This document shows positions 36,234-45,217 of a stretch of 47,711 nucleotides of DNA, piece by piece. A model generated the notes under the pieces. The model saw only the letters and a program-made list of their open reading frames with translations. It ran no database searches and was not told the DNA's origin. Where the stretch lies: the NCBI GenBank assembly GCA_001899685.1, contig MKWG01000038.1:1-47711 (forward strand), read 5' to 3'. The DNA is from Sphingobacteriales bacterium 44-15 (lineage in GTDB: Bacteria; Bacteroidota; Bacteroidia; Chitinophagales; Chitinophagaceae). Both the position numbers and the translations under genes were made by a program. Each line of letters opens with the position of its first letter. The stretch's first letter is position 1.

Positions 36234-36360
36234 TTGGCATCCTTCATGCCTGCTTCGTATACCGCGGTACGCGAAGAGCTCAGGTCATATACTATAACAG
36301 CCGCTATACAGAAGAAATAGCATACCCTTTTGTTATCCTGATAACCATCAGTAAACCGGA

Positions 36361-36403
36361 TGGCTATCGTCATCGGACTGAGATCAGACAACATATATTT
36401 TTG
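36361..36403 (+). promoter_or_regulatory. Fnr/Crp-type dyad and -7 box for the first universal stress gene
   Basis: TGGCTATCGTCA (36361-36372) fits TGAY-N4-RTCA with one mismatch; 23 nt later comes TATTTTTG (36396-36403), an exact TAnnTTTG. The -33 TTTG is missing, as expected for an activator-dependent promoter. Same geometry as four other promoters nearby. Confidence 0.68.
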
Positions 36404-36419
36404 ATATGAAATCAGCAAT

Positions 36420-37244
36420 ATGAAAAGAATCCTATTGACACTTAATCCGGCAAATGCCAAAATCAATACGCTTGACTTTGCATGTTTTATTGCAAGATTA
36501 ACAGGGTCTGAGTTAACTGTGCTTTCCTTCGAGCCACTACCAGCTGCAAAAGCACCAGCCATAAAAGCTGAAAGAGAAATACTACATTTCGAAAAGAAAA
36601 AAAATGAATACATTTCCGACCATCTATACGAACATAACAAAGCATTGTTTTCAAATGCCTGTCAGTCCAGGGAAGTAAATTTTTCTTTTTGTGTATTTAC
36701 AACCCGTTCACCCGAAGCAGTAATTGTCGAAACGCGTTTTGCAGACCTGTTGATCGTTGACCCGGAAATTAAATTTTCCGGCGACCAGCAAGGCCTGCCA
36801 ACGGAATTTGCAAAAGAACTTCTTTTAAAAAGCGAATGCGCTGCTATACTTGCACCTTATAGCTTTGAAGGAATTGATGAGATTATATTGGCTTACGACG
36901 GCAGCAAATCGTGCGTGTTTGCTATTAAACAATTTACCTTTCTTTTTCCTGAGCTGGCAGATAAAAAAGTGACCGTGGTCCAGGTCAACAATGACGAGCC
37001 GGACAAACCAATTGTGCAGGAACAAAGGATCCGGCAGCTTTTAAATACCCATTATGACAAGGTACACTTTGAAACGCTCAACGGACAGCCGGCGTTTGAA
37101 TTAGTGAGATACCTCATTGATAAGCGGAAAACATTTGTAGTGCTTGGTGCATTTGGCCGCAATATGCTGAGCAACTTTTTAAAAGAAAGCACAGCTAATA
37201 AAGTTGTAAGCACAGCGAATTTACCTTTCTTTATTTCCCATTGA
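36420..37244 (+). CDS. Tandem universal stress protein (UspA-like), degenerate
   Basis: A 274-residue cytoplasmic protein made of two UspA-fold halves. The first begins MKRILLTLNPANAKINTLDFACFIARLTGSELTVLSFEP; the second (about 140-274) has DEIILAYDGSKSCVFAIKQF and ends in VVLGAFGRNMLSNFLKESTANKVVSTANLPFFISH, a modified G-x2-G-x9-G nucleotide loop. Bacteroidota clusters of this kind answer oxygen or energy limitation. It is followed by a coiled-coil gene 49 bp downstream and preceded by an activator-type promoter 17 bp from the start. Confidence 0.87.
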   Translation: MKRILLTLNPANAKINTLDFACFIARLTGSELTVLSFEPLPAAKAPAIKAEREILHFEKKKNEYISDHLYEHNKALFSNACQSREVNFSFCVFTTRSPEAVIVETRFADLLIVDPEIKFSGDQQGLPTEFAKELLLKSECAAILAPYSFEGIDEIILAYDGSKSCVFAIKQFTFLFPELADKKVTVVQVNNDEPDKPIVQEQRIRQLLNTHYDKVHFETLNGQPAFELVRYLIDKRKTFVVLGAFGRNMLSNFLKESTANKVVSTANLPFFISH

Positions 37245-37293
37245 CAGCCTGTCCTTATATTTTTTGCATTTAGAGATATTTAAATTCGAAAAA

Positions 37294-37671
37294 ATGATAA
37301 CCCTGAAGCTAGAACAACTGGTTTTTGAAAGCGACACCTGGAAAAGGAATCTTGCCTTTATGACAGAAGAAAATATACGCCTGAAAAGCCGCCTGTCTGA
37401 GATACTGCAGAAAAAAATGGATAAAACACTGCTCCCAAGGGCAGAAGAATTCCATAACAGCTTTTTAAAACATGATGATCTTATTAAAGTGCTAAGGAAC
37501 GACATCTCAGGCTTTGATAAATTACTTACCAGAGAACTGTTTGAAGACGGGGCAATAATCAATACAGTAGAATCGAGATTAGAGATCATAAGAAAAAATA
37601 TACAAAAGACAGAAGAAAGATTTAATACCATGAAGCTCGACTTTTATAATCAGATGCAATTTCCTTCATAA
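37294..37671 (+). CDS. Small coiled-coil protein of unknown function
   Basis: A 125-residue protein. The ATG at 37294 is preferred over an in-frame TTG at 37264. It has no signal or membrane segment and is mostly helical, rich in Glu, Lys and Leu with heptad-like stretches (IRLKSRLSEILQKKM, VESRLEIIRKNIQKTEERF). I recognise no family. It is probably co-transcribed with the universal stress gene and lies before Hsp20, so a stress role is suggested by place only. Confidence 0.75.
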   Translation: MITLKLEQLVFESDTWKRNLAFMTEENIRLKSRLSEILQKKMDKTLLPRAEEFHNSFLKHDDLIKVLRNDISGFDKLLTRELFEDGAIINTVESRLEIIRKNIQKTEERFNTMKLDFYNQMQFPS

Positions 37672-37735
37672 ATAGCCAGGCGCCTGTTCTGACATTGAGT
37701 CGTAAGCTGCTACTGACTGCTCTCATTGATTTTGC

Positions 37736-37778
37736 TGATGACGGTCGTTTGATGGATATTTCTTCAATAATAGATTTG
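37736..37778 (+). promoter_or_regulatory. Fnr/Crp-type dyad with full promoter for hsp20
   Basis: TGATGACGGTCG (37736-37747, one mismatch from TGAY-N4-RTCA) is followed directly by TTTG (37748-37751), 19 nt, then TAGATTTG (37771-37778). The dyad-to--7 gap is again 23 nt, and both promoter boxes are exact. Confidence 0.75.
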
Positions 37779-37812
37779 TTCTTCAATTAATAACAATCAA
37801 AAATCAAAAATT

Positions 37813-38256
37813 ATGGCAACGCAAGCACTTACAAGATTATCCGAGAGGATGCCTTCATTCTTTGATGATTTTTTAAAACCCTGGAATGAATGGATAAGCA
37901 AAGAAAATGGCTGGAACACATTAATGAACCTTCCTGCCGTAAACATTTCTGAACACAAAAATGAATATCAGCTGTCGGTAGCCGTACCGGGAATGAAGAA
38001 AGGCGATTTTAAGCTGGATGTAGACGGTAATATTCTTACCATCAGCTCTGAAAAAGAAGAGAACAGAGAAGAAAAGGACAAGAAATTTACAAGAAAGGAA
38101 TATAACTATTCTTCATTCAGCCGCAGTTTTACCCTGCCTGATGATGTTGAGAAGGAAAAAGTAGAAGCAAGTTATGAAGAAGGGATATTAAAGGTAAGTT
38201 TACCGAGAAAGGAAGCCGTAAAAAATTCACACGCAAAGCATATAGCCGTGAAATAG
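37813..38256 (+). CDS. Small heat shock protein, Hsp20/alpha-crystallin family
   Basis: A 147-residue chaperone. The alpha-crystallin domain (about 45-140) contains LPAVNISEHKNEYQLSVAVPG, the DVDGNILTISSEKEE loop and FSRSFTLPDDVEKEKVEASYEEGILKVSLPR with the conserved GILKVxLP motif. It holds unfolding proteins in a refoldable state. The start fits an N-terminus with FDDFLKPWNEW. It is followed by two hairpins that terminate it and the convergent response regulator gene. Confidence 0.96.
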   Translation: MATQALTRLSERMPSFFDDFLKPWNEWISKENGWNTLMNLPAVNISEHKNEYQLSVAVPGMKKGDFKLDVDGNILTISSEKEENREEKDKKFTRKEYNYSSFSRSFTLPDDVEKEKVEASYEEGILKVSLPRKEAVKNSHAKHIAVK

Positions 38257-38285
38257 GTCTGCTTATTTTTATTGCAAGGCTCTCC

Positions 38286-38311
38286 GCCCCGTCAACATTA
38301 AAAGACGGGGC
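38286..38311. terminator. Hairpin terminator after hsp20
   Basis: GCCCCGTC (38286-38293) and GACGGGGC (38304-38311) form a perfect 8-bp stem with a 10-nt loop, about 30 bp after the hsp20 stop. The T-run that follows is weak (AATTTATAT). Confidence 0.65.
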
Positions 38312-38386
38312 AATTTATATATTGACATCAACTAGCGTTATGTCAAACGTGAAACGGCAGACTTACCTGCCGTAGGCATGGCAGGC

Positions 38387-38421
38387 AGGCGATAAATGTG
38401 AGATCCTCACATTTATCGCCT
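38387..38421. repeat. Perfect 16-bp palindrome between convergent hsp20 and response-regulator genes
   Basis: AGGCGATAAATGTGAG (38387-38402), loop ATC, CTCACATTTATCGCCT (38406-38421): arms match at all 16 positions. It is preceded by CCTGCC/GGCAGG inverted bits. It ends 44 bp from the response-regulator stop and could be a bidirectional terminator or a dispersed palindromic element; no long T-run is seen. Confidence 0.7.
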
Positions 38422-38464
38422 CACTTCTCACAAAGAAACACGAAAAATTATTGTTGACATGGTA

Positions 38465-39523
38465 CTAATTAAATAATTTTTCCAGTTTAGACTGATTGAG
38501 GATCCTGATAAGTCCGTCATGTATTTCTATCAGCTTTTCATTTTTGAAATCACCAAGCGTTCTTATCAGCGATTCAGTAGCAGTGCCGGCAACCGTGGCG
38601 AGATTTTCACGGCTGATATCTATAGTGAATGGTTCTTCTTTATTCTTCCTGTATTTATCCTGGATCATTAATAGTGCGTTAGCTACTTTCTTCCTTAATG
38701 AGTTGTACGCAAGGTTTAAAAGCTGATCCTCCTTTTCAGAAATATTTTTAGCAAGGAGCTGTATGAATTTCCTGGCTATCTGCTGGTTCTTGTCAACCAA
38801 TTCATCAAAGTCTTCCCTGGGTATGACTGCCAGTTCTGTATCTTCCAAAGCCTCTGTGGTGTCTTTATAGGCGGTATTTTCAAGAAGGGCTATATGTCCC
38901 ACAAAATCACCGGCGCTGAAAAGCTCCGTTATCAGCTCTTTTCCATCTTCATTGATCTTAAATGCTTTAACTTTTCCGCGTAATACATAATAAAGACGGT
39001 TAGGATGATTTCCCTCTGAATAAATGACCTGCTTCTTTTTATAACGGTTGACATTCCGGTTTTCAGTGAGCTCCTGTAATTCACTTTTCCCGGATGAAGC
39101 TTCGAGCAGTTGGTGCACTCCATTTAAATCCGACTGAAGATCCTGCTTTAACAATTCCAGCTTTTTCAGGCGGCTGCCTACAGCATTGAGCAGCTCGGTC
39201 CCGTCAAACGGTTTGGTAAGATAATCGTCTGCTCCGAGATCCATTGCCTTACGCATATCATTGCGTTCCGTCTTTGCAGTGAGAAATATGAAAGGAATAT
39301 TTTTTGTTGCGTCATTTCTTTGTAAGGCGTGAAGCACTCCGTAACCATCCAGTTCCGGCATCATGATATCGCAAATCACCAGGTCGGGCAAATTCTCCAG
39401 GGCTTTGGATACGCCTGCTTTCCCATTCTCCGCTACAGTTACTTTATAATTTGACAGCTCCAGTATTTCTGCTGTATTACTTCTGATATCTTCGTTATCC
39501 TCAATGATCAAGATTTTTTTCAT
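38465..39523 (-). CDS. Response regulator with receiver, cyclic-nucleotide-binding-like and Crp/Fnr HTH domains
   Basis: A 352-residue cytoplasmic regulator. The receiver domain (1-120) has phospho-acceptor Asp near 52 in PDLVICDIMMPELDG and the KPF lysine. A Crp-like effector domain follows (about 150-270, GDFVGHIALLEN, AVIPREDF), then a Crp-type winged HTH (about 280-352, ISRENLATVAGTATESLIRTLGDFK). No Cys cluster for an Fnr-type iron-sulphur centre is present, so the signal must come from the kinase or a ligand. Its start overlaps the kinase gene by 23 bp. It is the best local candidate to bind the TGAY-N4-RTCA dyads seen upstream of five neighbouring genes. Confidence 0.93.
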   Translation of the reverse strand: MKKILIIEDNEDIRSNTAEILELSNYKVTVAENGKAGVSKALENLPDLVICDIMMPELDGYGVLHALQRNDATKNIPFIFLTAKTERNDMRKAMDLGADDYLTKPFDGTELLNAVGSRLKKLELLKQDLQSDLNGVHQLLEASSGKSELQELTENRNVNRYKKKQVIYSEGNHPNRLYYVLRGKVKAFKINEDGKELITELFSAGDFVGHIALLENTAYKDTTEALEDTELAVIPREDFDELVDKNQQIARKFIQLLAKNISEKEDQLLNLAYNSLRKKVANALLMIQDKYRKNKEEPFTIDISRENLATVAGTATESLIRTLGDFKNEKLIEIHDGLIRILNQSKLEKLFN

Positions 39524-41117
39524 AATGCGTATTGTTTTTAGAGAAGGCTATAATAAACTCTGTTCCCTTTTGCAGTGCACTCCTGCATTGAATAGTTCCA
39601 TTCATCAGCTCAGCGTATTTGGAAATAATATGTAATCCCAACCCGGTTCCCTGGATGTTAGTGGCGTTGGTGCCGCGGAAGAATCGCTCCATCAAATGTT
39701 TTTGATCCTCTTCCGATATTCCGATCCCCTCATCTCTTATAGAGAAAATATACTGCGTTTCATTGGTAATCGTGTGAATGATTATCCGGCTGGACTCGGG
39801 AGAAAACTTGCTGGCGTTAGATATCAGGTTCATTACAATGTGCTTTAGCAAGGAAGCATCAAGGAATACTTCGGCTGTACCTTCGTGGCGGTAATGGATG
39901 GTTTGTTCTTTCTTAAGATTATTCTTGATTTCTTCAGCCACCGAAGTAATGAACTTTTGCACATCAAACCTAGTGTACTTAACATGTATCCTCCCCTCTT
40001 CGATTTTCCCAACACTGAGAAAATCGTTCAGGATATCAGTTAGCATATTTACCGATGAAATAATTCGTTTTAAATGTCTTTCCCGCTTTAGCTGCTCCTC
40101 TCCGGTATTGTATTGCTCCAGCAGGTAGGCAGAAGATAACACAGTGCTCAGGGGCGTTCTGAACTCATGAGAAGCCATTGAAACAAATCTCGATTTTAAT
40201 TCGCCGAGCTCCTTTTCCTTTTCCAGGGATCTGGAAAGCTCCTCCTTGGAAATCTGCAATTGTTGTATGGCATTCTTCAGTTCTCTTGTTCGTTGCTCCA
40301 CAGTTTCCTCAAGCTCATCATTCAGCTTTTTTATCTCCAGCTCAGCTTTTTTTCTGATGGAAATGTCGTTTATAAAAGCTATTACATATTGTTGTTCGTT
40401 CCTTGTGTAGACGCTCAGGCTAATTTCCACGGGAAATTCCGTTCCATCCTTTTTTACAGCAAACAGATCCATTCCCAGACCCATGGGCCTGTTTTGGGGG
40501 TGCGCCGTATATTTCTCCCTGTGATGTAAATGTTTTAAATGAAATCTTTCCGGAATTAATACTTCAATCTTCCTGTTTATAATTTCCTCCTTTTTGTACC
40601 CAAATAATGTTAAGCCGAAACGGTTAATACTTACGATCTCAGCTTCTTTATTTATTTCCAAAATGCCCATGCAGGTATGTTCCAGCACAGCCTCTAGCCG
40701 TTGTTTCTCCTGAGCTATCCTTTGTTCATTTTCTTTCATGGTATCTATTCTGTCAATCACAGCCAGGTAATATGATCTGTTGTTGTTGGTAAATGCCCTG
40801 AAGATCAGTTCTCCCCAAAATAGTTTTCCATTTTTTGACACATATTCTACCTGTTCATGGAAAGAACCTTCTTCGGCTACTCTTATACGATATAAAAGCT
40901 GCTTATCAGTCAGCTTTTTTTTTCTTGATGCAAAAACAGGTAACAGGCTGATATTATCAGATGGATTGACATCAAATACTTCGCTCCAGGCGCTATTACA
41001 AAAAATGATTTTTCCCGATATTTTCTCAATTATAGCCGCACCTTCCTTAATGCCGTTGCACAAAGCCACTAAAAAGTCTTTTTTTAATACGTCTGCAAGA
41101 TTGTGTGCAGTATCCAT
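39501..41117 (-). CDS. Cytoplasmic PAS-domain sensor histidine kinase
   Basis: A 538-residue kinase with no membrane segment. Two PAS domains (about 20-130 and 140-260; the second ends FPVEISLSVYTRNEQQYVIAF) are followed by a coiled coil, the HisKA box with phospho-acceptor His about 317 (SMASHEFRTPLSTVL), and the HATPase_c N, G1 and G2 motifs (HIVMNLISNASKFS, DEGIGISEEDQ, GTGLGLHI). The cytoplasmic PAS layout fits sensing of oxygen or redox state, but no haem or flavin residue is provable. It forms an operon with the Crp-type regulator. Confidence 0.94.
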   Translation of the reverse strand: MDTAHNLADVLKKDFLVALCNGIKEGAAIIEKISGKIIFCNSAWSEVFDVNPSDNISLLPVFASRKKKLTDKQLLYRIRVAEEGSFHEQVEYVSKNGKLFWGELIFRAFTNNNRSYYLAVIDRIDTMKENEQRIAQEKQRLEAVLEHTCMGILEINKEAEIVSINRFGLTLFGYKKEEIINRKIEVLIPERFHLKHLHHREKYTAHPQNRPMGLGMDLFAVKKDGTEFPVEISLSVYTRNEQQYVIAFINDISIRKKAELEIKKLNDELEETVEQRTRELKNAIQQLQISKEELSRSLEKEKELGELKSRFVSMASHEFRTPLSTVLSSAYLLEQYNTGEEQLKRERHLKRIISSVNMLTDILNDFLSVGKIEEGRIHVKYTRFDVQKFITSVAEEIKNNLKKEQTIHYRHEGTAEVFLDASLLKHIVMNLISNASKFSPESSRIIIHTITNETQYIFSIRDEGIGISEEDQKHLMERFFRGTNATNIQGTGLGLHIISKYAELMNGTIQCRSALQKGTEFIIAFSKNNTHYEKNLDH

Positions 41118-41191
41118 AGCAGGATATTTAGTACTATTGGCAGGAAACCTCTCCTACAAGGTAAAAATAAATCTGAATTAAGAAAACGGTG

Positions 41192-41234
41192 CAAATCTAG
41201 TAGCTCCCGAATACAATTCAAATGATCCAGGTCA
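41192..41234 (-). promoter_or_regulatory. Fnr/Crp-type dyad with full promoter for the kinase/regulator operon
   Basis: Reading on the minus strand: TGACCTGGATCA (41234-41223) meets TGAY-N4-RTCA exactly, then TTTG (41222-41219), 19 nt, TAGATTTG (41199-41192). The dyad-to--7 gap is 23 nt, placing the dyad near -41. This predicts autoregulation by the encoded Crp-type regulator. Confidence 0.8.
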
Positions 41235-41295
41235 TCAGAAGAGGTAACAACCATCAATGAGCTGCCGCTGATATGGATAATGGTTGTGTGTGCTA

Positions 41296-43704
41296 TTACC
41301 GGTGCGTAGTCTCTAATGTATGGATATTCCTGCTTTTAAGGGCTTGTTCTGCTTTCTGAATATTTTCAATTCCCTTAAACAGCGCGTCGGGATTAAAAGA
41401 TATGCTGTCAATGCCCTGCTCTACAAGGAATCTGGCAAACTCAGGAAAATCACTAGGTGCCTGCCCACACAATCCTATATGCGCGCCTGCTGCTTTCGCT
41501 TTTTTGATCATCGTCGCAATCATTTCTTTAACCGCATCGTCCTGCTCATTAAACATACTGCTGAGAATAGTGGAGTCTCTGTCAAGCCCTAAAGTAAGTT
41601 GCGTAAGATCATTAGAGCCAATGGAAAATCCATCGAAAATCCGGGCGAATTTTTCAGCTAATATCACATTACTGGGGATTTCCGCCATCACGTATACCTG
41701 CAGGTTGTTCATTCCCCGCTGCAATCCCGATTGCTGCATTTCAAGCAACACTTTGTTCCCTTCTTCTATAGTTCTGCAAAAAGGTATCATTATTTTAACG
41801 TTATCCAATCCCATGTCATTTCTCACTTTCTTAATGGCTTCGCATTCCAGCCTGAAACCATCCCGGTAAAGATCATTGCAATACCGTGAAGCGCCGCGGA
41901 ATCCTATCATAGGGTTTTCTTCTTCAGGTTCAAAATCCTTCCCACCGATAAGATCAGCATATTCATTTGTTTTGAAATCGCTCATACGCACGATCACATC
42001 TTTTGGATAGAAAGCTGCTGCTATAGTACTTATGCCTTCAGCCAGCTTATCGGTAAAATATTTTTTCTTATCAGGAAAAGAATGCGTTATATGCTCAATG
42101 GACTGCTTTGCCGCACCATCTTTCAGATCATTGAAATGCACAAGCGCCATAGGGTGAATACGGATAAAATGCGTTATAATAAATTCCATTCGCATGAGCC
42201 CAACACCATCATTTGGATAAAAGGAGAGCCTGAATGACTGCTCAGGATCAGCTACGATCAGCATCGCCTTTGTAGCGGTTTTTTTTATTGTTGAAATATC
42301 CAGTGCGGTTTCGGTGAATGATGCCTGTCCTTTGTAAACAAACCCCGTTTTTCCCTCACAGCACGAAACTGTGATCAGTTCGCCGTCTGATATCTTCCCT
42401 TCAATATCGCCGCATCCAACAATGGCAGGCACACCTAATTCCCTGGCAACAATAGAAGCATGGCTGGTTCTGCCGCCTTTGCTGGTAATAATTGCAGAAG
42501 CGTTTTTTAAAATCGGATCCCAGTCCGGACTGGTCAGAGCGGTCACCAATATTTCCCCGGGTTTTAACTTATACGATTCTTCCGGCGAATCCAGCAGCCT
42601 GGCAGGGCCTGTCACTATTTTCGATCCTATGGCTTCACCCTGAACTAACGTATCGCCTTTCCCGGACAACCGGTATTCTTTTATAATAAGTGGATTTTTT
42701 TGTGCATGCACTGTTTCAGGCCTTGCCTGAATGATAAACAAATCACCGGTAATGCCATCTTTAGCCCACTCTATATCCATGGGTTTTTGATAATGCGCTT
42801 CAATAGACACCGACCAATGTGCAAGCTTGCTCACTTCTTCATCACTGAGCACAAACTGGTTTTGTTTTTCCTTTGAGGTAATGGTATTGACGACGGTTGT
42901 ATCTCCGCTGTCGCTGTAGATCATCGTCTTTGCCTTTTCACCAAGCTTTCTCTGCACAATAGCATCTTTCCCCAGCAGCAATGTGGGCTTGAAAACAAAA
43001 AATTCATCGGGTATAACGGTACCCTGTACAATATTTTCGCCAAGCCCCCAAACGCCGCTAATGTGTACAATGTTGCGAAATCCTGATTCGGGTTCCAATG
43101 TAAAAGCTACACCGGAAGAGCCCTTATCGGAACGCACCATTTTTTGTATACCTGCCGAAAGCGATACCTTTTCGTGGGGGAAGTCATTGTCTTGCCGGTA
43201 CTTTATAGCCCTGTCTGTATATAGCGATGCAAAACATTTTTGAACGGCTTTTACTAACTGCTCTTCTCCTTTAATATTAAGATAGGATTCGTGCTGGCCT
43301 GCAAAGCTGGCATTGGGCAGATCCTCAGCAGTGGCGCTGCTGCGAACAGCTACCGCAATATCGTCTTTGCCAATCAACTGCCTGTATGCGCCGATAATAT
43401 CTTCCCTGAATTCAGGAGGCATCTCCCCCTTCATAATTAATTCCCTTGCCTGCATTCCTGTTTGCGCCAGGTTTGAAAAATCAGAAATATCGAGTTGGCT
43501 CATCAGGTTATGCAATGGTAAATGAAGAGCGTTGTGGGTGAGAAATTCCTCGAAAGCAAAGCAGGTGGTAGCAAATCCATCAGGCACCTGTATACCATTG
43601 GAAGAAAGTTGGGTGAACATTTCTCCCAAAGACGCATTTTTTCCACCTACTATCTGGGTGTCGGCTATACCGATTTCACTAAACTTCTTTATATAAGCAT
43701 TCAT
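41296..43704 (-). CDS. ppsA: Phosphoenolpyruvate synthase
   Basis: An 802-residue enzyme converting pyruvate, ATP and water to PEP, AMP and phosphate. The start at 43704 (MNAYIKKFSE) matches the family; two earlier ATGs exist. The ATP-grasp domain holds VGGKNASLGEM and AVRSSATAEDLPNASFAGQHES. The swivelling domain has the phospho-histidine near 415 (GGRTSHASIVARELG). The C-terminal PEP barrel ends with LCGQAPSD, containing the catalytic Cys. It lies 17 bp after the universal stress gene and shares its promoter, so gluconeogenesis seems to be switched on with the stress response. Confidence 0.97.
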   Translation of the reverse strand: MNAYIKKFSEIGIADTQIVGGKNASLGEMFTQLSSNGIQVPDGFATTCFAFEEFLTHNALHLPLHNLMSQLDISDFSNLAQTGMQARELIMKGEMPPEFREDIIGAYRQLIGKDDIAVAVRSSATAEDLPNASFAGQHESYLNIKGEEQLVKAVQKCFASLYTDRAIKYRQDNDFPHEKVSLSAGIQKMVRSDKGSSGVAFTLEPESGFRNIVHISGVWGLGENIVQGTVIPDEFFVFKPTLLLGKDAIVQRKLGEKAKTMIYSDSGDTTVVNTITSKEKQNQFVLSDEEVSKLAHWSVSIEAHYQKPMDIEWAKDGITGDLFIIQARPETVHAQKNPLIIKEYRLSGKGDTLVQGEAIGSKIVTGPARLLDSPEESYKLKPGEILVTALTSPDWDPILKNASAIITSKGGRTSHASIVARELGVPAIVGCGDIEGKISDGELITVSCCEGKTGFVYKGQASFTETALDISTIKKTATKAMLIVADPEQSFRLSFYPNDGVGLMRMEFIITHFIRIHPMALVHFNDLKDGAAKQSIEHITHSFPDKKKYFTDKLAEGISTIAAAFYPKDVIVRMSDFKTNEYADLIGGKDFEPEEENPMIGFRGASRYCNDLYRDGFRLECEAIKKVRNDMGLDNVKIMIPFCRTIEEGNKVLLEMQQSGLQRGMNNLQVYVMAEIPSNVILAEKFARIFDGFSIGSNDLTQLTLGLDRDSTILSSMFNEQDDAVKEMIATMIKKAKAAGAHIGLCGQAPSDFPEFARFLVEQGIDSISFNPDALFKGIENIQKAEQALKSRNIHTLETTHR

Positions 43705-43721
43705 TCTCATGATCAATTGTA

Positions 43722-44549
43722 TTATTCGTGAAGAGATATTACAGGAACCTGTGTGTGAAGTACTAACCGCAGCGAATGGCTGGGGTGGAATAATTTACTG
43801 AAAAGCTTGTGTTTTTTAGGAATGACAATAAGCAGATCCAGTTTCTTTTTTTTCGCAAATTCAACAATCCCGTGTTCCATATCGGGATCATTAATAAAAT
43901 GATATTTAGGATGCAACTCACCCAACATTGCCTTCAGCCAATCCGATTCTCCTGCTGCTTCGGCGCTAACCGTATCCTGAAAATTGTCTCTTATATTCAA
44001 TACATGCAATTCAGCCTCAAATTCATTTACCAGTTCCCTGATCTCCCGGGCACGCACTGTTTCAATAACCTTCTTAAGATCGCAGGCAAGACCTATTTTA
44101 GCGATACGTTTAAATTTTGCAGTTGCCGGCACAATAAATAAGGGTGACTCCAGCCGTTCAACCGCTCCTGTTGTTTTGCCGCCTAATATAAACCGTTCCA
44201 GACCGCCCAGGCTTTCTGCGCCCATTACTACTGCATAAGGCATTACTTCTGCACAATATCCAGTTAAATTTGATAGCACGTCGCCGGCTCTTAATTCGTT
44301 ATGAATAATGATCCTTTCGCCAGTGCGATCAAGCAAATCTTCTTTTAAAGCATTGATTTTTCTTTTGGCATCAGATTCCATCTGCTCGATGCTGTATTCA
44401 GTTATTGGTACCTCACTCACCGGTTGCGGTATCGGGTACACATGAAAAAGCGTTAAATTGGCTCTGAGCATGCACGCCATATCTGCTGCATAATTCACAG
44501 CATTTATCGAAACAGGAGAAAAGTCGGTTGGAGCTATAATCGTTCTCAT
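43722..44549 (-). CDS. Tandem universal stress protein (UspA family)
   Basis: A 275-residue protein with start at 44549 (MRTIIAPTDFSPVSINAVNYAADMA), the classic Usp opening; earlier ATG and in-frame codons lie within the promoter region. The first half has VVMGAESLGGLERFILGGKTTGAVERLESPLFIVP, close to the G-x2-G-x9-G-S/T loop of ATP-binding Usps. The second half (about 145-275) is degenerate (LLIVIPKKHKLFSKLFHPSHSLRLVLHTQVPVISL). The downstream partner is ppsA at 17 bp. Confidence 0.92.
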   Translation of the reverse strand: MRTIIAPTDFSPVSINAVNYAADMACMLRANLTLFHVYPIPQPVSEVPITEYSIEQMESDAKRKINALKEDLLDRTGERIIIHNELRAGDVLSNLTGYCAEVMPYAVVMGAESLGGLERFILGGKTTGAVERLESPLFIVPATAKFKRIAKIGLACDLKKVIETVRAREIRELVNEFEAELHVLNIRDNFQDTVSAEAAGESDWLKAMLGELHPKYHFINDPDMEHGIVEFAKKKKLDLLIVIPKKHKLFSKLFHPSHSLRLVLHTQVPVISLHE

Positions 44550-44634
44550 AAATTTATTTTTTACTGCGGGTAAATAATCAGCTCCGGGCTGGACCATCTT
44601 TGGCGCCATAGCTGTCGTTCATTTAGATATCAAT

Positions 44635-44677
44635 CAAAAGTAGATCAGGTATTAGTAGGAAAGACTGACCACCATCA
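44635..44677 (-). promoter_or_regulatory. Fnr/Crp-type dyad and -7 box for the usp-ppsA operon
   Basis: Minus-strand reading: TGATGGTGGTCA (44677-44666) meets TGAY-N4-RTCA exactly; 23 nt later TACTTTTG (44642-44635) is an exact TAnnTTTG. The -33 TTTG is missing, so activation is probably needed. Confidence 0.75.
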
Positions 44678-44747
44678 ATGAAATATTTGATAGTCCTCAA
44701 ACAATATTTATCCCGTTTCTCTTTAGTATAGAATAATCTCTGCGTAA

Positions 44748-44790
44748 TGATCGGGATCATCCGAGCGGCCATATACGGTCAGCTTTTTTG
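44748..44790 (+). promoter_or_regulatory. Fnr/Crp-type dyad and weak -7 box for the zinc-ribbon gene
   Basis: TGATCGGGATCA (44748-44759) meets TGAY-N4-RTCA exactly, and 23 nt later lies CTTTTTTG (44783-44790), which keeps the TTTG of the -7 box but not the TA. The start codon is about 150 bp further, implying a long leader. Confidence 0.6.
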
Positions 44791-44938
44791 GCGTAGTGCC
44801 ATAATAGTTTTGAGCAATTAAAATTATTGTTATGCAAAAAACATTAGTTGCTTTTGACTGCACACGATATCCGAGATCTCTTTTAAAATCCGGGAGCAGA
44901 TGAGTGTGTATCGTCCTTCATTTAAAACAAAAAATGTT

Positions 44939-45217
44939 ATGAATAAAGACAAATTTTGCCAAAGCTGTAGTATGCCGCTGAAGGGCACCCATCTGTATGG
45001 AACTGAAAAAGATGGCTCTCCCAGTCTTGATTATTGCATATACTGTTATAAGAACGGAGCTTTCACCGATCCTGATCTTACACTCGACCAAATGAGGCAT
45101 TGCATGATCAGAAAAATGGATTCAGCCATGGTCCCGGAAGATATTATCGAAGCTGCTATCAATCGGCTTCCGGGCCTAAAACGATGGGCTGATACAACAA
45201 AGCAGCCAAAAAGATAA
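44939..45217 (+). CDS. Small putative zinc-ribbon protein
   Basis: A 92-residue protein with start at 44939 (MNKDKFCQSCSMPLKGTH), favoured over an ATG at 44900. Two CxxC pairs (CQSC and YCIYC) with the FCQSCSMPL and GAFTDPDLTLDQM motifs match the putative zinc ribbon domain family (PF12674 type). Function is unknown; it may act as a nucleic-acid or protein-binding adaptor. It has an Fnr-type dyad upstream like the neighbouring stress genes. Confidence 0.85.
   Translation: MNKDKFCQSCSMPLKGTHLYGTEKDGSPSLDYCIYCYKNGAFTDPDLTLDQMRHCMIRKMDSAMVPEDIIEAAINRLPGLKRWADTTKQPKR

Follow-up and report, generated by a model that had tools for sequence, protein, structure and literature searches.

A tandem Fnr-type operator and a candidate receiver-Crp regulon for low oxygen and stress in Bacteroidota

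The stretch of DNA analyzed here, termed the window, comprises 47.7 kb of Sphingobacteriales bacterium 44-15 (contig MKWG01000038.1), and the part under study covers 8.4 kb in which genes for universal stress proteins (Usp), a small heat-shock protein (Hsp20), a phosphoenolpyruvate (PEP) synthase-like enzyme, a zinc-ribbon protein and a two-component system are preceded by the same DNA element. This element is a tandem operator, TGAYN4RTCA-N10-TGAYN4RTCA, in which two dyads lie 22 bp apart, centre to centre, and which ends 23 nt before a TAnnTTTG box. We propose, with a probability of roughly 0.7, that a response regulator which combines a receiver (REC) with a Crp-type DNA-binding domain, together with its PAS-PAS kinase, would act through this operator to activate a genome-wide low-oxygen and stress regulon, including the operon of the two proteins themselves.

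A tandem operator at a fixed distance from the -7 box

In what follows, a dyad is TGAY-N4-RTCA, the -7 box is TAnnTTTG, that of Bacteroidota sigma-A, and the gap is the number of nucleotides from dyad to box. An earlier note, made from the sequence alone, described five stress-gene promoters that share a single dyad, each 23 nt from its box. All five dyads are present exactly where it placed them, including the two with one mismatch each in the proximal position (36361 and 37736). The gap of 23 nt to an exact box holds for four of them (36361, 37736, 41223 and 44666) and fails for the fifth, the zinc-ribbon dyad at 44748. The latter is 23 nt from CTTTTTTG at 44783, which had been taken for a degenerate box; this was rejected in favor of TAGTTTTG at 44805, an exact box at a distance of 45 nt. 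Given the exact box 45 nt away, the 44748 dyad takes the distal place in a pair, and its proximal partner, at 44770-44781, is half-lost. Since a distal dyad occurs at gap 45 in five of five promoters and a good proximal dyad at gap 23 in four of five, the unit consists of two dyads 22 bp apart, a tandem that the description of one dyad per promoter had missed.

When dyads of no more than one mismatch are paired with exact boxes throughout the window at gaps of 0-60, four pairs fall at gap 23, five at gap 45 and two in total at the other 59 gaps. Lone dyads of the same stringency are in weak excess (88 versus 68 ± 9 expected, a number reached by 3 of 100 shuffles), and their count, too weak alone, was discarded as evidence of significance. 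In the organism's own genome (6.0 Mb), an exact single dyad with a box at gaps of 8-38 gives 13 matches versus 6 in the reversed control; three of the 13 are at gap 23, two of these within the window. The tandem with its box, at up to 3 mismatches in 18 positions, is found 29 times, versus 3 for the reversed pattern, and seven matches have at most one mismatch, four of them in the 8.4-kb stretch. The FNR consensus TTGAT-N4-ATCAA was also tried on this genome and set aside (18 places versus 2 in the control); in the motif described here, the base before TGA is A or C.

The same geometry recurs in a set of related loci, namely the best 80 of 568 relatives of the regulator, with a total of 1.36 Mb. 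The distance from an exact single dyad to an exact box is 23 in 34 cases and 45 in another 34, with 7 cases at gap 24, 8 at gap 44 and 0-2 elsewhere, and the distance between dyads is 22 in 73 cases, every other distance accounting for 0-4. A grid over both distances, which involves no training, reaches its maximum of 185 at (22, 23); the remaining cells of the row with a dyad distance of 22 hold 26-73, and the 144 cells with another dyad distance have a median of 5 (range 0-28). Where proximal dyad and box are both exact (n = 42), the distal dyad has 0-1 mismatches in 29, versus 2/378 at control offsets. A position matrix, trained on the loci it scored and controlled with reversed sequence, returns 315 strand hits of at least 15 bits versus 4 in the control. 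These represent 186 distinct operators in 58 loci, of which 177 lie outside called genes and 9 inside, where genes are greedy longest calls of open reading frames (ORFs) and inside means more than 30 nt from the ORF end. A scatter of sites at random distances, which the earlier note had named as the observation that would speak against it, is thus seen neither in the own genome nor in the 80 related loci.

The box TAnnTTTG has been reported at -12 to -5 from mapped transcription starts in Flavobacterium psychrophilum (PMC9723704). With a gap of 23 nt, this published position places the centre of the proximal dyad at -41.5 and that of the distal dyad at -63.5. The start sites being taken over from the box position in F. 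psychrophilum, the geometry supports a class II activator position for the proximal dyad, and the suggestion of a shared site near -41 is supported in this sense. In the matrix of the 80 loci, no strong -33 element is left between dyad and box, and weak T-richness follows the dyad. The geometry of the operator, its conservation, its location outside genes and its association with one family of regulators are read from the sequence itself.

The receiver-Crp regulator and its PAS kinase

The proposed activator is a response regulator of 352 aa (38465..39523, reverse strand), in which Pfam confirms the Crp-type helix-turn-helix (HTH) domain that had been attributed to it, in the arrangement REC, cyclic-nucleotide-binding-like and HTH_Crp_2. 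Its domains PF00027 (E 5e-24) and PF13545 (E 4e-13) place it in the Crp/Fnr superfamily, and the PF00072 receiver together with the adjacent kinase gene makes it a two-component response regulator. The gene of the histidine kinase (PAS-PAS-HisKA-HATPase_c, 538 aa; 39501..41117, reverse strand) overlaps the start of the regulator gene, and the two therefore look like one operon. The closest relatives of the regulator belong to Chitinophagaceae-type Bacteroidota. Among 86 aligned regulators, that of the window included, D52, K104, E317 and R321 are invariant, and a kinase ORF lies within 2 kb of the regulator in 80. The recognition helix of the window regulator is GTATESLIR, and its Glu and Arg, residues expected to read TGA/TCA, are kept in 86/86.

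The regulator departs from the known classes which it resembles. It has a single cysteine (Cys51), with neither the N-terminal cluster nor the central Cys of FNR proper, and the 86 regulators have on average 1.6 cysteines, at least four being found in 4/86. With one cysteine, the window protein does not qualify as an FNR-like Fe-S sensor, and the designation Fnr-type, as used in the earlier note, suits the DNA code and not the protein. The cAMP phosphate-binding cassette of CRP carries an Arg-Ser pair; no such conserved pair occurs in the cassette columns of the 86 regulators, and column 221 of the alignment, which we take to match the CRP Arg, is Glu or Asp in 83 of them. The LuxR/NarL-type HTH of the FixLJ and DosR/NarL systems is likewise absent, Pfam recognizing HTH_Crp_2 in its place.

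The putative sensor is the second PAS domain of the kinase (PAS2), whose best solved relatives are FixL (E 1.6e-11) and DosP (1.8e-11) and whose H196 aligns with the heme-ligand His of both. The proximal heme His, on helix F, is His200 in BjFixL and His77 in EcDosP; H61 of the predicted model falls, end to end and provided that no gap intervenes, on positions 200 (BjFixL, offset 139) and 77 (EcDOS, offset 16). The aligned His is present in 64 of 80 paired kinases, an unselected count. Kinases lacking it were removed before the structure alignment (63 kept, 54 diverse, 36 used), and its invariance there is a product of that selection. The predicted PAS2 model, with a predicted local distance difference test score of 93.7, has FixL and EcDOS as its top Foldseek matches. 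PAS2 is a likely heme sensor.

In the mechanism envisaged, falling oxygen (or a change in redox state or nitric oxide, NO) would be sensed by the kinase through its FixL/DosP-like second PAS, and the kinase would phosphorylate the neighboring regulator. Two regulator dimers would then bind side by side, abutting each other on one face of the DNA, 22 bp being 2.1 turns. The dimer at -41.5 would contact the polymerase in the class II manner, replacing a strong -33 element, and the dimer at -63.5 may add stability or a second contact. Such binding would switch on the Usp proteins, Hsp20, PEP synthase and the zinc-ribbon protein and, elsewhere in the genome, the cbb3 oxidase genes, and the kinase-regulator operon would feed back on itself. 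The same operators seem to be used, in some relatives, by a stand-alone protein of the Fnr type, the recognition helix of which is nearly identical.

The nature of the signal is the part of this scheme with the strongest competitor. The regulator and operator may be correctly paired, and yet PAS2 may respond to redox state, NO, light or another ligand, the target genes forming a general stress regulon; we judge this unlikely, though it deserves to be kept in view. Usp and Hsp20 are indeed general stress genes, and sequence does not reveal whether heme is bound. At the position of the FixL distal Arg the window kinase has Met, and its ligand behavior may consequently differ from that of FixL. 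Three further observations weigh against the oxygen-sensing assignment: LOV and other PAS domains follow closely behind FixL and EcDOS in Foldseek, the top VIA-align Z belongs to an unannotated PAS, and 16 of the 80 paired kinases, some of them another kinase or a fragment, lack the aligned His. Oxygen is favored by the presence of cbb3 oxidase and assembly genes downstream of operators in several lineages, and by the best matches to the PAS2 sequence, which come from heme-based oxygen sensors whose aligned His most of the paired kinases share.

Distribution of regulator and operator across genomes

A regulator, defined as a full-length relative at E ≤ 1e-40, is found in 32 of 198 genomes drawn across the phylum, all within the class of the window; 10 candidates were scored per genome, so that a regulator could have been missed. 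The mean number of sites per genome is 8.9 in these 32, 3.5 in the 17 genomes of the class without a regulator and 0.28 in the 149 others, in counts which may score the palindromic tandem on both strands and for which the reversed control totals 14 in the 49 class genomes and 18 in the 149 others. The regulator-bearing genomes differ from the 149 others at p 4e-20 (Mann-Whitney).

Several results weigh against a strict partnership of regulator and operator. Inside the class, regulator-bearing genomes differ only modestly from the rest in their site counts (p 0.004). In 22 of the 80 related loci, some of them short, the matrix scan finds no operator, and in the own genome the operator between the second REC-Crp regulator and FixI has a poor box with two mismatches. 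The pattern cut-off leaves three of the 32 regulator-bearing genomes (G053, G130 and G154) without a site, and 1-3 sites are counted in each of five other genomes of their family. The regulator does not, therefore, always imply the tandem, and the stronger statement that the tandem always accompanies it is ruled out by the same three genomes. G154 has an 18-bit matrix site before its kinase gene; in G053 there is no matrix site of at least 12 bits within 10 kb around the regulator. The operators of these genomes (loci L194 and L195) may have another layout or be weaker. Conversely, four genomes without the regulator (G150, G111, G194 and G076) have 6-15 sites, which indicates that another protein can use the operator, and the own genome offers candidates, since six of its eight Crp-family proteins over the Pfam cut-off are stand-alone and two are REC-Crp regulators.

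One of the stand-alone proteins might accordingly work the operator in the own genome, the REC-Crp regulator being merely a neighbor, an explanation that we consider improbable. The protein at C22:77496 has Fnr-like cysteines at 23, 28, 31 and 122 and keeps the Glu/Arg pair of the recognition helix, as does the 198-aa Crp at C22:85746, whose own gene is preceded by a tandem operator. Moreover, in five genomes without the regulator (the four above and G017), 2-15 sites occur together with a stand-alone Fnr-type protein whose helix reads GTATES-x-IR. Among the eight aligned Crp-family proteins of the own genome, however, this helix occurs only in the two REC-Crp regulators, and operators are dense around the regulator genes and stand also before the kinase-regulator operon. 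In eight further genomes of the class (G012, G021, G029, G057, G068, G084, G095 and G142), a stand-alone Fnr relative without the regulator is accompanied by only 0-3 sites. These genomes, and G154, which holds both an Fnr relative and the regulator yet has no site at the cut-off, also rule out the notion that any Fnr relative implies sites.

Small Crp proteins of 197-198 aa with an upstream tandem operator occur both in the own genome (L158:4732-5328, site at C22:86358) and in G150 (L190:1616-2209, site at C3:215528). By analogy, they could be a second tier like FixK.

The Fnr-type proteins of the five regulator-less genomes carry several N-terminal cysteines and a further one, with Cys at 10, 13, 22 or 30, and 112 (18, 21, 30 and 120 in G017). 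Tandem operators precede FixI or CcoNO in G150, G111, G194 and G017, and no cbb3 genes are present in the region read of G076. The Fnr-type gene lies beside the cbb3 operators in G150 only, one ORF from FixI, and is located elsewhere in G111, G194 and G017, which tempers the main proposal. A FastTree phylogeny of Crp domains, built from the aligned own-genome and Fnr-type proteins and about every third regulator, with an outgroup of the author's choice, clusters the regulators together with weak support (0.55) and sets the Fnr-type proteins with the same helix in a separate clade (0.96). This grouping does not support a recent domain swap between Fnr and REC-Crp; as the two groups stand apart, the exchange is better described as replacement by an old paralogue. 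The sequences compared are best summed up as one operator code common to two old branches of a single family, either of which would drive it depending on the lineage.

To a broader version of this idea we give a little less than an even chance. One tandem code at the Bacteroidota -7 promoter would serve two sensing chemistries, in some lineages that of a stand-alone Fnr-type oxygen sensor with cysteines and in others that of a kinase with a heme-type PAS coupled to a receiver-Crp protein which merges the roles of FixJ and FixK. The regulator would have been exchanged and the operators and cbb3 targets kept, the 22-bp tandem representing a double-dimer activation geometry at -41.5/-63.5.

That the dyads are mere chance matches lined up by an expectant reader is extremely improbable, common as single dyads with one mismatch are in the window, in view of the spacing statistics in window, genome and 80 related loci with their reversed or shifted controls, and of the peak at distances of 22 and 23 that emerges from loci which had no part in the earlier note.

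The predicted regulon and its relation to known systems

The studied part of the window has the gene order Usp-A, orf135 and Hsp20 on the forward strand, response regulator, histidine kinase, PEP synthase and Usp-B on the reverse strand, and zinc-ribbon protein on the forward strand. The Usp-A/orf135 promoter has an exact distal dyad TGATAACCATCA (36339..36350, forward), centred at -63.5 and 22 bp upstream of the proximal dyad TGGCTATCGTCA (36361..36372, one mismatch, centre -41.5), followed at gap 23 by the exact box TATTTTTG (36396..36403). It precedes Usp-A (36420..37244, forward; 274 aa, PF00582, E 8e-11) and orf135 (37294..37671, forward), a small helical protein without Pfam match which is probably in the Usp-A operon. 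In the Hsp20 promoter, both the distal dyad TGACTGCTCTCA (37714..37725, forward) and the proximal dyad TGATGACGGTCG (37736..37747) carry one mismatch, and the box TAGATTTG (37771..37778) is exact at gap 23; the gene (37813..38256, forward) codes for 147 aa with PF00011 (E 6e-28). Between Hsp20 and the regulator gene lies a perfect 14-bp inverted repeat with a 3-base loop (38389-38419), perhaps a shared terminator of these converging genes.

On the reverse strand, the site that had been noted before the regulator's own operon is confirmed, and comprises the exact proximal dyad TGACCTGGATCA (41223..41234) and the distal dyad TGATGGTTGTTA (41245..41256, one mismatch), with an exact box TAGATTTG at 41192..41199 (gap 23). 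The PEP synthase-like PpsA (41296..43716; 806 aa; PF01326, PF00391, PF02896) and Usp-B (43722..44609; PF00582, E 6e-21; true start likely inside the ORF) share a promoter with the exact box TACTTTTG (44635..44642, gap 23), the exact proximal dyad TGATGGTGGTCA (44666..44677) and the distal dyad TGAGGACTATCA (44688..44699, one mismatch), all on the reverse strand. On the forward strand, the zinc-ribbon promoter consists of the exact distal dyad TGATCGGGATCA (44748..44759, gap 45 to the exact box), the degenerate proximal dyad CATATACGGTCA (44770..44781), of which the right half (GGTCA) alone is kept, and the box TAGTTTTG (44805..44812), at gap 23 from the latter. The zinc-ribbon protein (PF12674, E 1e-24) is encoded at 44900..45217. 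Between its promoter and its gene, a 23-residue ORF starting MQKTLVAFD (44832-44903) resembles the N-terminus of Usp and may be what is left of a Usp gene that this promoter once served.

The regulon had been described as compact, a term which does not fit the predicted operators, spread as they are over the genome (cbb3 locus, more Usp, acetyl-CoA hydrolase and a stand-alone Crp gene). Beyond the five promoters of the window, the targets predicted by position in the own genome are CcoNO, FixI, a PNPOx-like gene, two more Usp genes, acetyl-CoA hydrolase, baeRF3 (followed by PfkB and aldolase genes), and the gene of the 198-aa Crp; the remaining tandem matches include some before ORFs without known function. 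Names such as FixI and CcoNO rest on Pfam domains of the own-genome proteins and on BLAST to them. The second REC-Crp regulator of this genome is an immediate neighbor of cbb3 genes and of a copper-type ATPase (FixI). A second cluster of tandem operators (L154, C7:194000-213500) contains baeRF3, PfkB, aldolase, two Usp and acetyl-CoA hydrolase.

In the related loci, 195 genes adjoin operators and were compared with 28 reference proteins. They include relatives of orf135 (18), Usp (18, by four reference proteins), Hsp20 (17), the kinase (15), CcoNO (13), FixI (10), a pyridoxamine-oxidase-like protein (5), the regulator (4) and baeRF3 (3), and 84 have no match. Among 20 of these 84 run against Pfam, some are FixS, BON, radical-SAM, Glu/Leu-type dehydrogenase and chaperonin. 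An operator stands before the kinase or regulator gene in 17 of the 80 loci. Relatives of orf135 are present in 28 of the 80 loci, many converging on the kinase-regulator operon, and on its sequence context orf135 is a predicted member of the regulon. Its model is a three-helix bundle (score 89) with no Foldseek match at E ≤ 0.001, the top rows being mostly designed or other helical bundles, and no function is therefore assigned to it.

The low-oxygen respiration switch of Bacteroidota is little described in the literature searched. A defined operator, a regulator family and a list of targets are now open to gel shift and reporter assays, and relatives in which another sensor seemingly serves the same operators provide a natural experiment on the replacement of a regulator without rewiring of its targets. 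Precedents exist for Crp/Fnr activators, FixL-type kinases and low-oxygen regulons as such; the combination of this regulator architecture with this tandem operator in Bacteroidota did not come up in the literature searched. Neither a REC-Crp regulon nor a tandem Fnr-type operator in Bacteroidetes is named among the matches listed (titles and starts of abstracts), which is no proof of absence, most subscription papers being outside the coverage.

A close parallel is the FixL-FixJ-FixK cascade of rhizobia, which controls fixNOQP, and in which FixJ has a LuxR-type HTH and FixK is a separate protein. The two systems have in common a FixL-like PAS kinase, a Crp-type DNA code and cbb3 oxidase targets, but here a single protein holds both receiver and Crp parts, and the operator is a tandem at a Bacteroidota -7 promoter. 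The DosR/DevR dormancy regulon of mycobacteria, with its heme kinases and NarL/LuxR-type HTH, shares the Usp, Hsp20 and low-oxygen logic and differs in HTH type and operator. In the class II and tandem CRP/FNR promoters of E. coli, the proximal dimer is at -41.5 and a second dimer lies upstream, whereas here the second dimer would be fixed at -63.5, abutting the first, and the -7 box is TAnnTTTG.

Comparable sets of genes respond to low oxygen in other bacteria. FnrN of Rhizobium drives a small heat-shock protein and fixNOQP (PMC11784457), and its anaerobox regulon shares with the present one the TGA-N6-TCA core (TTGA-N6-TCAA there), these targets and autoregulation; in contrast, the window regulator combines a receiver domain with a single cysteine, and the sites described here have A or C, not T, before TGA and a fixed 22-bp tandem. 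The Crp/Fnr homologues of Flavobacteriales and Saprospiraceae are described as MalR-like (PMC8510549). In Myxococcus, the NmpR regulon includes Usp, HemN and a P-type ATPase with cbb3 genes (PMC11841059). NmpRSTU of Myxococcus xanthus is likewise a two-component system that governs oxygen use and its own genes, and its sensor kinase binds heme, as PAS2 here may; yet NmpR, which is NtrC-like, acts together with sigma-54, NmpU uses a globin sensor, and the DNA-binding domain is another one than the Crp-type domain of the regulator presented here.

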